Assembly (NCBI RefSeq): GCF_000092645.1 | Contig: NC_014165.1 | Span: 2,976,001 to 3,040,000 of the forward strand | Direction: 5' to 3' | From: Thermobispora bispora DSM 43833 | GTDB taxonomy: Bacteria; Actinomycetota; Actinomycetes; Streptosporangiales; Streptosporangiaceae | Length of the DNA: 64,000 bases | Part shown: piece by piece, positions 7,740 through 12,079 of the stretch | How positions within the stretch are numbered: the first letter of the stretch is position 1 | Layout of the letters: every line of letters begins with the position of its first letter | Program-made: the position numbers and the translations under genes | Notes under the pieces: model-generated | Database searches by the model: none | The model's input: only the letters and a program-made list of their open reading frames with translations | Told to the model about the DNA's origin: nothing

Positions 7740-9758
7740 TCAGGCGGTCCGCCGCGGGGCGTGCCGGCGCAGGGCGAGGTCGATGTCGGGGTCGTCCGGG
7801 TCGAGGGCGTGCGCCCGCTGCAAGTCCCGTACGGCCTCCTCGGTCCGGCCGAGCGCGAGGAGTGCGGTGGCGCGGTTGTAGAGCAGGGCCGCGTCCTCCC
7901 CGAGCTCGATCGCCCGGGTGAGGTCCTCCACCGCCCCCTCGGCGTCACCGGTCTCGTACCGGAGCATCGCCCGGCCCGCCCAGGCGGAGGCGAGGCCGGG
8001 CGCGGCCGACACCGCGAAGTCGAAGGCCTTGCGCGCCTCCTCGGTCCGGCCGGCCGCCGCCTCGAGCGCCCCGAGCAGGGCGTGCAGGTGGGCGTTGCCG
8101 GGGTCGATGACCAGGCCGGCCGCCACGTCGCGCCGGGCCGCCTCGGCCTCGCCTTGGGACTCCAGGATGCTCGCCCGGTTGACGTAGGCGTCGAGGAAGC
8201 CGGGGTCCAGCTCGAGCACATAGTCGAGGTCGGCCTTGGCCCCGTCCAGGTCGCCCTGGGCCAGCCGGAGCTCGGCGCGGTTGTAGTAGAGCTCCGGCGT
8301 GGGCGGGCTCACCCGCATCGCGGTCTCGTAATCGGCGAGGGCCTCCTCGGTCCGGCCCAGCTCGAACAGGAGGTTGCCCCGGTCGACGTAGTTGTCCGGG
8401 TAGGCCGGGTCGAAGGCGATCGCCCGGTCGAAGTCCCGGAGCGCCTCCTCCTTCCGGCCCATCCGGGCGAGGAGCTGCGCCCGGTTGGCGTAGAGCACCA
8501 TCTTGTGCACCGGGTGCGCCTCAGGCGGCAGGTCCCGCTCGGCGAGGTCGATCGCCGACTGAACCAGGTCCAGGGCCGCGTCGATCCGGCCTTCCCGCAG
8601 CTCGATCAGCGCCCGGCCGTTCTGGTCGAACCCGAGCTTGAACGCCCGCTCGCGCGGGTCGGGCAGCAGGGTCGAGATCGCGATCGCCTCGTTGATCCAT
8701 CCTCTGGCGCGCTTCAGGTCCCGGTGCGCTGCGTCCCGGTACCGGGCGTCGAGCATGGCGATGCCGTACGCGGACGCGGCGTGCACGACCGGGTCGACGC
8801 TGACCCGGCGGGCCTGCTCGAACAGCTCGTAGGCGCGCTCGGTCTCCCCCAGCCCGCTGAAGGCGAACGCCGTGCGCTGGGTGAACTTCCACCACAGCTC
8901 GGAGCCGGGCTCGGCGAGCCGCAGCCCGCGCAGGCCGAGCTCGGTGACGGCGTGGAGGAAGCCCTCGGACACGCAATGGTCGAGCGCCTCCCACAGGGCC
9001 TGGAGCGCAGCCTCCCGGTCGCCGCTGTGCTCGAGGTGGTAGGGCACCGCGCCGAGCGCGTACTCGCCCGGCCACGCGCCGCCCGGCTCGCCCCGCAGCT
9101 CGGCCGCGCGCCGGGCGTGCCGCCGGGCCCGCTCCTCCTCGGGGAGGGCGAGATAGGCCCGGTACGCCTCGGGGTCGTCCGAGGTGCCGTCGGAGGCGAT
9201 GTAGTCCTCCGGCGGGCCGTCCGAGGCGGCCGCCCGGACCACCTGCAGGCCGTCGGGCGGAGGCTCCGGGGAGCCGATCGCCAGGGTGAGGTTGCCCACC
9301 CGCCGCGCCAGCACGCCGAGCAGCTCCCGGTCGGTCGGGTCCGCCTCGTGGACGTTGTCCACGGCGAGCGCGGCCGGCTCGGTGAGGCACGCGCGGACGA
9401 ACTCCGCGATCCCGTTCGCGAGCCAGAGGGTGCGCCGCGGCGCGGGAACGAGGATCCGCTCGTTCTCCGGAAGCCGGGCGGCGACGCTCTCGTGGCGCGC
9501 CGGGACCACGGCGCGCAGATCCGGGGCGACCGCCCGGATCTCGATGTCGTGTGCCGCCACCAGGTCGGGGGAGCGCTCCAACGCGACCGGCACGAGCGCG
9601 CGCAGCAGCGCGCCGCCGATCGTGTACGGACCGCGGAGTCGGCGATGGCCGTTGAGCACGGGCACCACCAGCGGCGGAAGGTCGAGAGAGCGGAGCCGCT
9701 CCGTGCGATCGCGGGACCGCTCGCCCCAGACCCAGAGGTGGCGATCCCCGCCGATCAA
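7740..9758 (-). CDS. TPR-repeat protein with degenerate NTPase-like N-terminus
   Basis: A 672-residue protein when started at the TTG (9758), which overlaps the stop codon of the small ORF upstream in a TTGA junction. Residues 1-190 resemble the ATPase part of large actinobacterial TPR regulators: a Walker-B-like stretch, ALAVDNVHEADPTDRELL, is present, but the P-loop region reads VVPVLNGHRRLRGPYTIGG without GKT/S, so nucleotide binding is doubtful. Residues from about 200 on are helical, and the last 330 contain at least seven TPR units of about 34 residues (for example MGRKEEALRDFDRAIAFDP and LGRTEEALADYETAM). It is probably cytosolic and acts through protein contacts. The frame is open to 9869, so a longer start cannot be excluded. 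Confidence 0.8.
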   Translation of the reverse strand: MIGGDRHLWVWGERSRDRTERLRSLDLPPLVVPVLNGHRRLRGPYTIGGALLRALVPVALERSPDLVAAHDIEIRAVAPDLRAVVPARHESVAARLPENERILVPAPRRTLWLANGIAEFVRACLTEPAALAVDNVHEADPTDRELLGVLARRVGNLTLAIGSPEPPPDGLQVVRAAASDGPPEDYIASDGTSDDPEAYRAYLALPEEERARRHARRAAELRGEPGGAWPGEYALGAVPYHLEHSGDREAALQALWEALDHCVSEGFLHAVTELGLRGLRLAEPGSELWWKFTQRTAFAFSGLGETERAYELFEQARRVSVDPVVHAASAYGIAMLDARYRDAAHRDLKRARGWINEAIAISTLLPDPRERAFKLGFDQNGRALIELREGRIDAALDLVQSAIDLAERDLPPEAHPVHKMVLYANRAQLLARMGRKEEALRDFDRAIAFDPAYPDNYVDRGNLLFELGRTEEALADYETAMRVSPPTPELYYNRAELRLAQGDLDGAKADLDYVLELDPGFLDAYVNRASILESQGEAEAARRDVAAGLVIDPGNAHLHALLGALEAAAGRTEEARKAFDFAVSAAPGLASAWAGRAMLRYETGDAEGAVEDLTRAIELGEDAALLYNRATALLALGRTEEAVRDLQRAHALDPDDPDIDLALRRHAPRRTA

Positions 9759-9829
9759 CCCTTGTGGATGGCGCTGGACGAACCGGTCAGCCGCACCATG
9801 CCGGGCTTGCGAATCCTGATCTTCTTCAC
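9755..9829 (-). CDS. 24-residue basic peptide ORF coupled to the TPR gene
   Basis: A short frame starts with GTG at 9829, four bases after a GAGG ribosome site, and reads VKKIRIRKPG then MVRLTGSSSAIHKG before TGA. The stop overlaps the TTG start of the TPR gene by two bases. The peptide is rich in Lys/Arg at the N-terminus and ends in a Ser-rich tail. It could be a coupled leader peptide, a substrate peptide handled by the TPR protein, or the true N-terminus of the TPR protein separated by a frameshift. Its frame is absent from the annotated neighbours, and it is too short for statistical support. Confidence 0.45.
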   Translation of the reverse strand: MKKIRIRKPGMVRLTGSSSAIHKG

Positions 9830-9870
9830 TGTGCCTCGCTTCTCCACTTCTCGCGACAAGCCAAGGCACA

Positions 9871-9898
9871 AGTATTCAAACCGTTCAAGAAATAGCAA
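9871..9898 (-). promoter_or_regulatory. Candidate promoter for the peptide-TPR unit
   Basis: On the minus strand TTGCTA (9893-9898) and AATACT (9871-9876) are separated by 16 bases in an AT-rich island between the GNAT stop and the GTG at 9829. Both hexamers match consensus at four of six positions. Confidence 0.3.
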
Positions 9899-9909
9899 GT
9901 CCACGCGTG

Positions 9910-10416
9910 TCAATCAGACACACAAAATGGTGACAACTCCGATATCAAGTACTTCTCGCCATAAAGGACGACATTTTCGCCGCGTTTCTCCCGCCGTAAT
10001 TCCCGCCACCCGGCCTTCCGGTACAGCTCCAGCGCAGCGGTTTGCCGAAGCGTCGTATCCCCGCGGAGCACCGCGTAGCCGAGCTCGCGGGCCCGCTGCT
10101 CCAGGGCGAGCATGATCTGCGTGCCGTACCCGCGGCGCTGGTGGTCGGGGTGCACGCGAAGCCGGCACATCTCGGCCGTCCGGTCGTCGATCCGGCGCAG
10201 GCCGCCCATCGCGACGATCCCGGCGCCCTCCACCTCCCCGACCAGGAACTCCCCCCGGTTGGCGAGGTACACCTCGGTGATGCGCGGAAAGTCGTCGTCG
10301 TAGTAGACGCCGTCCCCCGGCACCAGGCCGACCTGGGCGAGGGCGATCTGATGCAGCGTCCACACCGCGTCGAGGTCGGACCAGCGGTACCGGCGGATCC
10401 GCAGCGGTTTCGTCAT
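9910..10416 (-). CDS. GNAT family N-acetyltransferase
   Basis: A 168-residue single-domain GNAT. LRIRRYRWSDLDAVWTLH is the first strand and helix, MCRLRVHPDHQRRGYGTQIM holds the acetyl-CoA loop (QRRGYG), and LELYRKAGWRE is the usual final motif. The last 15 codons (ending SELSPFCVSD) are markedly less GC-rich than the rest, as is the region beyond. It lies 25 bp from the XRE regulator gene on the same strand and is probably co-transcribed with it. The substrate is unknown. Confidence 0.88.
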   Translation of the reverse strand: MTKPLRIRRYRWSDLDAVWTLHQIALAQVGLVPGDGVYYDDDFPRITEVYLANRGEFLVGEVEGAGIVAMGGLRRIDDRTAEMCRLRVHPDHQRRGYGTQIMLALEQRARELGYAVLRGDTTLRQTAALELYRKAGWRELRREKRGENVVLYGEKYLISELSPFCVSD

Positions 10417-10441: not shown

Positions 10442-12079
10442 TCACGTCGGCCTCACGGCGAGCCCCGTCTCCGTGGTGTCGATCGCCCGCTCGGCGAGCA
10501 GCTCGCGGAAGCTCTTGAGCTTGGGGAGTTCGCCGTACTTCGTCTGGATCTTCTTGATCAGGTCATAGGCCGGGCGGAGCAGCAGCTCGGTCCGGAACTC
10601 CTTCTCGATCTGCTCGATCGCGTCGATGCCCAGGTCCAGGGCACCTTCCACGTCGCCCTCCAGCAGCCGGCACAGGGCCTTGTCGAAGCGGATCAGCGTC
10701 TGATCGAGCAGGTCCTCCTTCTGGTACTTGTGCAGCGCCTGCTCCAGGATGACCTCCGCCTCCACGGTCTGGCCCAGCCGGACTAACACGTCACCCTGGT
10801 AGAAGTAGAGCTGCCGCTCGGTGTAGCCGAAGGCGGGATTCTCCCGCTCGCTCGCGCTCATCTGCGCGAACGCGGCCCGCGCCCGGTCCAGGGCCCGCCT
10901 CGCCTGCTCGGCCGCCTCCTTGTTCGAGCCGGAGTTCGCGGAGAGCATGGCGAGCGCGCGCGCCTCGACCACGGGGGCCATCGCCCGGGCGGCGCAGGGC
11001 GTCTGCCCGGCGAGGTCCCGGCTCTTCCGGGCCAGCATGAGCGCCTCGCGCGGATCCCCGTAGTACAGGGGAACCAGCGCCTCGCGCGCGGTCACCCAGG
11101 CGCGCAGCGCGCGGTCACCCGTCTCGTCGGCCGCGCTGCGCGCGGTGCGGAAGAAGGCGCGCGCCTGGCGATGGTCGCCGAGGTCGATCATGATCATCCC
11201 GCACAGGCCGGCGAGCTGCGCGGCCATCCGGCACAACCGCTCCTGCACGTCGAGCGGCTGCCGCTGCTCGATGGCCCGCCGTACGGCGGAGAACTCGAGC
11301 AGCACGTCGCACAGCAGCCGGAGCGGCGGCGTGTTCATGTACTGCCTGCCGAACCCGCCCGTGGCCTGCTCCCATTGATCGAGCATCGCAGGGGACACGG
11401 TGGCCTTGGCCATGGCGTCGTCCATCTGCCGCCGGAGGTTCTCCACCGCGCGGAGCACCTGGCTGTCCAGGGCCGCCGCTCCCGTGGTGCCGGCGAGGAG
11501 CTTAAGCAGCGTCCTCCGTAGCACGTTCTCGTCCTCCTCGCCCCCGTCCGCACCGGCGTCGCCGCCCTCCGGCGAGGCCGGTAGGTCACGCGGCCCAGGG
11601 AATATGTCAGGCCTTCGCTCTGGCTGATCCCCCCCACCTGCCGCTCCGGTGATCGTGTGGGCTTTCCCGCAGATGCACGGCCCCTCGATTCCCAGGGACA
11701 GCGGTTCGACCCGGTAGACCAGGCACAGGTAGTGGAGGTATTCGGGACCGGGGCGCTTCATGCCCGACTCGTAGGCGGACAGAAGCGTCTCCCCTATACC
11801 GGGCGGGGGTTTTCCGTCTCGCTCGAAAAGAGCACGCACCTGTTCGATGACGTCCGCGAGCGCGATGCCGTGGGCCAGCCGGTGGGCCTTGATGCGCGTC
11901 GTGCCGAATTTCGGCTGGCAGGTTTCGTAGATCTCGTCGGCGATCTGCGCCATGCTCCGGCCGAGCGCCAGGCCGCGCGCCCGGATCCGGCGCGCGATCT
12001 CCGTCTCCTTACGCTGTTTCCCGGACGTCCCGGCCCCCCTGGTACGGCCGGCCGCGCTTCGCAGCCCAGGGCTCACCAC
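10442..12079 (-). CDS. XRE-type regulator with TPR-like C-terminal domain
   Basis: A 545-residue regulator. Residues 20-130 form an unusual helix-turn-helix region (SMAQIADEIYETCQPKFG, then IGETLLSAYESGMKRPGPEYLHYLCLVY), a CxC pair follows in GPCICGKAH, then a low-complexity acidic linker. From about residue 200 to the end it is all-helical and TPR-like (QRLCRMAAQLAGL-type and YFYQGDVLVRLGQTVEAEVIL). This build is common among actinomycete developmental and secondary-metabolism regulators such as the NsdA type; orthology is not claimed. The GTG at 12079 has AAGGGGG upstream. It is divergent from a small gene, with a palindrome over its own promoter, which suggests autoregulation. Confidence 0.8.
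   Translation of the reverse strand: MVSPGLRSAAGRTRGAGTSGKQRKETEIARRIRARGLALGRSMAQIADEIYETCQPKFGTTRIKAHRLAHGIALADVIEQVRALFERDGKPPPGIGETLLSAYESGMKRPGPEYLHYLCLVYRVEPLSLGIEGPCICGKAHTITGAAGGGDQPERRPDIFPGPRDLPASPEGGDAGADGGEEDENVLRRTLLKLLAGTTGAAALDSQVLRAVENLRRQMDDAMAKATVSPAMLDQWEQATGGFGRQYMNTPPLRLLCDVLLEFSAVRRAIEQRQPLDVQERLCRMAAQLAGLCGMIMIDLGDHRQARAFFRTARSAADETGDRALRAWVTAREALVPLYYGDPREALMLARKSRDLAGQTPCAARAMAPVVEARALAMLSANSGSNKEAAEQARRALDRARAAFAQMSASERENPAFGYTERQLYFYQGDVLVRLGQTVEAEVILEQALHKYQKEDLLDQTLIRFDKALCRLLEGDVEGALDLGIDAIEQIEKEFRTELLLRPAYDLIKKIQTKYGELPKLKSFRELLAERAIDTTETGLAVRPT

Follow-up and report, generated by a model that had tools for sequence, protein, structure and literature searches.

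In daptide clusters, an intramembrane site-2 protease carries a RiPP recognition element (RRE; RiPP, ribosomally synthesized and post-translationally modified peptide) fused to its N-terminus, and a short precursor is co-encoded (PMC10036551; here and below, papers are cited from excerpts of their text). RRNPP systems combine a small peptide gene with an adjoining gene for a tetratricopeptide repeat (TPR) protein (PMC10075063). A discrete RRE with its leader is known from lasso peptide systems (5v1u, 6jx3). EpeP, TglG and TmoG are called M50 membrane metalloproteases of RiPP maturation (PMC10885120), TmcP is an S2P clan protease (preprint PMC13252029), and these enzymes act by removing the leader or by cleaving off the product. 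Here we analyse a locus that recalls these systems: a 24-codon peptide gene and the TPR gene that it overlaps, on the minus strand of a 64,000-nucleotide window of Thermobispora bispora DSM 43833 (contig NC_014165.1, positions 2,976,001 to 3,040,000; the host genome is a single contig of 4,189,976 bases). The organism belongs to the Streptosporangiaceae, the family to which the counts of family genomes below refer. On balance, we consider it slightly more likely than not that the whole chain holds, in which the peptide derives from a RiPP-type precursor, lost its protease and is now the partner of its TPR protein.

Relatives of the peptide include precursors that stand upstream of an RRE-protease fusion, in loci that we call type III. 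These differ from daptides in that the ELExMEAP leader and the C-terminal Thr are absent from the type III precursors, which start with MKKIxVRKxGxVRLT. The daptide text (PMC10036551) mentions 'TPR' and 'tetratricopeptide' 0 times, whereas here a TPR protein is the constant partner, and the protease has no match in the window genome. The RRNPP propeptide length of 10–100 aa is found here as well, but the TPR protein of the window has 672 aa (relatives about 520–770 aa as called) against about 250–500 aa for an RRNPP receptor. The RRNPP propeptide is Sec-exported; in the window peptide, no hydrophobic stretch is seen by eye. Further differences are that no DNA-binding domain is among the Pfam matches listed for the TPR proteins, that the hosts are Actinomycetes and not Bacillota, and that the peptide is homologous to the precursors of RRE proteins (PMC10075063). 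The lasso RRE has the same fold as residues 19–99 of the type III membrane protein; unlike it, the type III RRE is fused to a membrane protease, and among the listed clusters we noticed no lasso cyclase, although none was specifically searched for. EpeP, TglG, TmoG and TmcP are membrane metalloproteases too, but no RRE fusion or TPR partner is described for them in the excerpts, and their precursors are different (PMC10885120, PMC13252029). Daptides are nearest by the fused protease and RRNPP systems by layout, and neither shows all of the features tested.

RRE, site-2 protease, TPR protein and short precursor are all known kinds of component; their combination, and the pair stripped of its protease, were apparently not described before. 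Searches of the open-access literature with leader strings and word combinations returned no description of either, and none stands in the excerpts of PMC10036551, PMC10885120, PMC7470986, PMC12710340, PMC12250964, PMC10075063 and PMC13252029. The supplementary figures of PMC7470986 show unnamed candidate clusters, among which the peptide/RRE-protease family may have been flagged earlier. A preliminary description of the window had proposed an undescribed peptide-based system involving the TPR protein, and this proposal is supported by our analysis. The kinship with precursor/RRE-protease/TPR clusters across Actinomycetes lay beyond the window sequence.

The peptide gene (9755..9829, minus strand) starts at a GTG (9829–9827) and stops at a TGA (9757–9755); a GAGG site lies 5' of the start on this strand, as does GCGAGGCACA. 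The encoded 24-mer, (V/M)KKIRIRKPGMVRLTGSSSAIHKG, is basic and mostly hydrophilic, and no signal peptide is visible in it by eye. The TPR frame (7740..9758, minus strand) starts at TTG 9758–9756, which shares the TTGA at 9755..9758 with the stop codon of the peptide in a four-base overlap. The short GTG frame with its GAGG site and TTGA junction had been proposed with no strand named, and is borne out on the minus strand. The layout implies coupled translation of the peptide and the TPR protein. At the 62 TPR-adjacent loci with a window-type (type I) peptide, the overlap codon is GTG in 60, TTG in one (the window) and CTG in one. A Shine-Dalgarno-like motif precedes the peptide in all 62, being merely GGGA or GGGG in 7. 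For this junction count, type I also admits the endings IHEG and MHKG (68 loci, 62 of them with a TPR gene).

The TPR search matched 30 of 60 genomes, the window's own included, some of them via generic TPR repeats only, and the upstream DNA of 18 other strong homologues (L002–L019) was inspected. A separate frame such as MKKIIVRKPGTVKLTGTSSVIHKG ends overlapping the TPR start in 8 of the 18 (L002–L008, L012), and 5 more (L009, L010, L011, L013, L014) have a related peptide, for example MKKVIVHKPGTVALSGAASPKHVG, that stops before it. L015 has a precursor ∼1.4 kb upstream of its TPR gene and L017–L019 are type III loci with precursors farther upstream; no peptide was found near the TPR gene of L016. 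Built from 15 peptides, a 24-position profile found matches in 94 of the 200 family genomes (30 of 68 genera, at most 3 places per genome). Its rows came from 14 of the 94 genomes, the other 80 having contributed none; the window's own match (E = 1.4e–12) holds by construction, its peptide being row 1. In a phylum-wide search, 3 of 396 genomes matched, the window's own included, one of them weakly (E = 0.0098). No Pfam or NCBIfam model matched the peptides scanned.

The places matched by the profile were fetched in part, and where a locus recurred, its copies were pooled according to their DNA context. Over the resulting 122 distinct loci, the peptide frame has 23–30 codons and starts with ATG in 116 and GTG in 6. 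The pN/pS ratio is 0.230 for type I (55 distinct DNA sequences, the window's included) and 0.262 for type II (36), computed on pairs at least 75% identical in DNA and with type I restricted to 24-aa peptides ending in IHKG (65 loci). Conservation at codon positions 1, 2 and 3 is 0.90, 0.91 and 0.71 for type I and 0.84, 0.88 and 0.73 for type II, and seven groups of loci encode an identical peptide despite 2–11 DNA differences. The preliminary description had weighed a separate peptide gene against a frameshift that would make the peptide the N-terminus of the TPR protein. The peptide frame runs into the TPR gene in none of the 122 loci (the longest frame has 30 aa). The first aligned TPR base follows the peptide start by 71–269 bases in type II (36 loci) and by 1,410–1,689 bases in type III (13 loci). 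Given the selection on residues, the conservation and the lack of fused frames, this is a separate conserved peptide gene, and it is almost certainly genuine. A TPR start far upstream in its own frame, which would have told against the peptide, fails in 19 of 62 type I loci, where a stop within the peptide span closes the TPR frame; in the window itself this frame is open upstream to a GTG at 9869.

The loci fall into three types. Type I, that of the window, has the tail SSxIHKG and the stop/start overlap and lies mostly at one chromosomal site, in the order NsdA-like gene, GNAT gene, peptide, TPR gene and a gene for a 282-aa protein. Type II has tails such as ASPKHVG or ASAKHEG and lies at other chromosomal places; one type II locus (L237) shares the kind of TTGA junction seen in the window. 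In type III, the precursor is followed by a gene for a ∼413-aa membrane protein and then by the TPR gene. A TPR gene is found downstream at 111 of the 122 peptide loci, with the protease gene intervening in type III; of the 11 loci lacking a TPR match in the junction count, L062 and L201 were excluded because their downstream sequence is short. Upstream regions of type II (e.g. L222, L224, L237) contain, as seen by eye, a CCGGATCCGG palindrome that may be an operator, and in several type II loci a TTGTCA lies ∼17 bases before a GAATAC, a possible promoter.

The first ∼15 residues of the window peptide match the type III precursors of Actinomycetes. The shared pattern is a leader-type start, MKKIxVRKPGxVxLT, followed in the window's type by the tail SSxIHKG, and the window peptide is very probably akin to these precursors. 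A scan of the species genome collection with the membrane protein gave 98 relatives, the best 80 of which were kept as loci (L104–L183); their genera include Streptosporangium, Lentzea, Actinokineospora, Streptomyces, Kitasatospora and Micromonospora, among others. An MKKIxVRKxGxVRLT-type precursor lies upstream in 79 of these 80 loci, in some as two or three copies. In the exception (L182), 67 bases separate the start of the match from the end of the contig, and the first 95 residues are missing from it. The TPR gene is next downstream in 80 of 80.

The membrane protein models as an RRE fused to a predicted site-2 protease (AlphaFold, mean pLDDT 88.5). Its RRE part (residues 19–99) aligns with 6jx3_B (Z 9.7, rmsd 2.2, 79 residues, 19–97), 5v1u_A (Z 9.7, rmsd 2.3, 78 residues, 21–98) and TigE (Z 9.0, 86 residues). 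The protease part (residues 154–356) aligns with RseP (Z 7.8–7.9, rmsd 4.7–4.9, 164–168 residues) and with the M. jannaschii site-2 protease MjS2P (Z 6.2, rmsd 2.5, 115 residues), values of Z below 8 that would be weak taken alone. The HExxH motif and a distal Asp (H174, E175, H178, D228) are invariant in 39 sequences. Foldseek returned nothing at E ≤ 0.001 for this model, and the RRE and S2P matches rest on probability, TM-score and VIA-align; no Pfam or NCBIfam cut-off was reached in the two members scanned.

Other genes accompany the type III loci in the fetched stretches. A flavin reductase-like cluster is present in 36 of 80, mostly right after the TPR gene (one relative confirmed by Pfam), a BTAD-like cluster in 43 and an old-yellow-enzyme-like cluster in 7 (labels assigned by eye). 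Among distant homologues of the RRE-protease (L244–L249, L251–L253, L255), several adjoin genes that are ThiF-like (L244 and L255 match PF00899) or, by eye, BTAD-like, together with tiny frames such as MKIVVKKVEKIQATLIVPGS whose starts resemble KIxVRK. These clusters are possibly another RiPP-like family, and the tiny frames suggest that such starts are what these RREs read. A Streptomyces plasmid also carries homologues of the RRE-protease and the TPR protein, annotated as 'hypothetical protein' and 'tetratricopeptide repeat protein'; no precursor with the leader profile was found on it.

Among 64 type III precursors from many families, the start (positions 1–15) has an entropy of 0.61 bits and the tail (16–26) one of 2.32. 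For the 16 that come from the window's family, the start has 0.40 bits and the tail 1.28 (16–24) or 1.52 (16–26). The 42 type I peptides reverse this order, with 0.81 bits for the start and 0.46 for the better kept tail. Eleven of the 16 share a tail with AACxxYK and have 0.19 bits for the start and 0.47 for the tail.

The protease appears to be lost rather than gained in the window's lineage, as far as can be inferred. The window genome has no RRE-protease match at E ≤ 1e–20 (a search confined to this RRE family), and of the 95 family genomes with the TPR protein, some match to the protease family is found in 51, a close one (E < 1e–140) in 20 and none in 44; 9 genomes have a protease match but no TPR family. 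In a midpoint-rooted tree of 58 hand-picked TPR proteins, type I forms one clade (100/99), and types I and II, a divergent type II and two unlinked TPR proteins together form one clade as well (100/100); type III occurs in at least four families. With this rooting, the tree reads as one protease loss in the type I/II clade and perhaps a second in the divergent clade L261–L263. The TPR genes of this divergent clade are preceded by related peptides (MRKMTVRRKAGLRLLSGARRLWIEWCW and similar; ∼27 aa; L261:4735–5000, L262:5000–5300, L263:5735–6070, minus strand) with the tail GARRxWxEWCW in 3 of 3, and no protease is found in their 8–9 kb stretches.

Peptide and TPR family occur together almost without exception. 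Of the 200 family genomes, 95 have the TPR family (E ≤ 1e–50), 94 the peptide (E ≤ 0.01) and 93 both, so that presence agrees in 197 (Fisher test, P-value = 7e–54, kinship ignored), and each partner is present in 30 of 68 genera. In both TPR-only genomes (G032, G137) a divergent peptide lies near the TPR gene, and in the peptide-only genome (G205) the match is weak (E = 0.004) and falls within a 388-codon frame. G016 and G073 each have a single peptide match and a single TPR match, on separate contigs, and the surroundings of these TPR genes yielded no peptide; the pairing therefore needs no linkage.

The window TPR protein matches Pfam TPR and is modelled with a pLDDT of 93.0 and a pTM of 0.89 as a degenerate STAND/AAA_16-like N-terminal part followed by a long TPR superhelix, with helix pairs running from about residue 237 onward. 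The model aligns with the TPR domain of OGT (1w3b_A; Z 21.7, rmsd 5.8, 386 residues) and with peptide-bound LGN (4g2v_A; Z 19.1, rmsd 3.3, 287 residues). Similarity to AAA_16 is weak (E = 0.05 in the window protein, 0.011 in L064), and GPYTxxGALLR occupies the expected place of the Walker A motif in the family alignment, as read by eye. The ∼220 N-terminal residues resemble a STAND/AAA_16 core without Walker A, and the earlier wording of 'broken NTPase motifs' was fair.

These observations suggest the following course. In type III loci, the RRE domain of the membrane fusion would recognise the precursor, and the protease would cut off the leader and may release the tail; the TPR protein is constant beside them. 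The protease is absent from the window's lineage, whose peptide gene sits at the TPR start so that both products could be made together, and the peptide would most likely act inside the cell as a ligand or subunit held in the TPR superhelix. Tentatively, and with slightly less than even confidence, we propose that the peptide and the pseudo-NTPase/TPR protein are the invariant core of an undescribed Actinomycetes system. This system would have an RRE-site-2 protease and diverse tails in many families and would apparently exist at least twice without the protease, the peptide then serving as an in-cell TPR ligand, co-made in the window through the four-base overlap.

Several points weigh against the peptide being the in-cell partner of its TPR protein. 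Sharing a TPR fold is no proof of peptide binding, and Z is raised by repeats; because repeats score high in general, the structural matches fit a peptide ligand but do not show one. The contrast between variable and constant tails is partly one of sampling: since the AACxxYK subgroup of type III is equally low, type I tails are not uniquely constant. In some genomes, though not in the window's, types I and II could rely on an unlinked protease. No modifying enzyme is constant across the 80 type III loci, so that the label 'RiPP' rests on the RRE, the protease and the precursor pattern. Finally, nine peptide loci have no TPR-family gene on either strand of the surrounding 6–14 kb; their genomes each carry one elsewhere.

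The strongest alternative, which we nevertheless think rather unlikely, is that the peptide is still secreted as a pheromone or RiPP after cutting by general or unlinked proteases, with the TPR protein as its receptor in the RRNPP manner. The small peptide gene does adjoin the TPR gene, unlinked peptide/TPR pairs exist, and the type III RRE-site-2 protease would fit a release step. The basic, mostly hydrophilic 24-mer without a signal peptide visible by eye argues against secretion, however, as do a window genome in which the dedicated protease has no match and TPR proteins that exceed the size signature of RRNPP receptors (PMC10075063). We regard it as improbable that the TPR protein is instead a maturation factor, be it a modifying enzyme, scaffold or chaperone, with a modified small peptide as product. 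Its constancy in all 80 type III loci, its NTPase-like N-terminal part and the flavin reductase-like cluster in 36 of them (Pfam tested on one relative) would suit this role, but the Walker A motif is degenerate by eye, no partner enzyme is constant, and Cys and Tyr are both lacking from type I tails.

An inert product, with the short frame acting in cis as a leader open reading frame that couples or times TPR translation, is very unlikely. The stop/start overlap of type I and of L237 would suit it, yet selection acts on the residues, the other type II and the type III peptides lack that junction, and peptides persist where no TPR gene is near. It is scarcely credible that the two form a toxin-antitoxin-like pair in which the basic peptide is the toxin: a small gene does overlap a larger partner, but type I lies mostly at one conserved chromosomal site, PADLOC gives weak TPR matches only, and peptides occur with no TPR gene nearby. 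A defence system was rejected too, the PADLOC matches being weak only. As for the frameshifted N-terminus, adjacent frames and a four-base overlap would suit it, but the absence of any fused locus and the well separated type III genes leave it next to no probability.

Upstream of the peptide gene, an 80-base spacer (9830..9909, minus strand) may, on slight grounds, contain a promoter of its own. Some relatives have a AATACTTG element no more than 120 bases upstream, namely 26 of 69 type I loci, 11 of 41 remaining loci (printed as type II, but including 2 type III and 1 longer type I-like peptide) and 0 of 12 type III loci. A sigma-70 consensus scan of 9600–10100 found 0 promoters. Beyond the spacer lie a GNAT acetyltransferase gene (9910..10416, minus strand; Pfam Acetyltransf_1), which we count as a syntenic neighbour found at type I sites only, and a gene for an NsdA-family TPR-like regulator (10442–12079, minus strand; NCBIfam NF053720 above cut-off), whose cluster is syntenic with type I loci. 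Neither was accepted as a component, since their clusters are found beside type I alone and in L095 and L096 an extra gene intervenes before the peptide.

Overall, the window peptide looks like a tamed relative of a RiPP-like system of Actinomycetes. It draws attention to a RiPP-like family that bears an RRE, has a constant TPR partner and comprises at least 64 distinct precursors. Genes of 24 codons may escape annotation. The stripped pairs isolate the TPR partner together with one short peptide, and this makes the question of leader-peptide binding testable.
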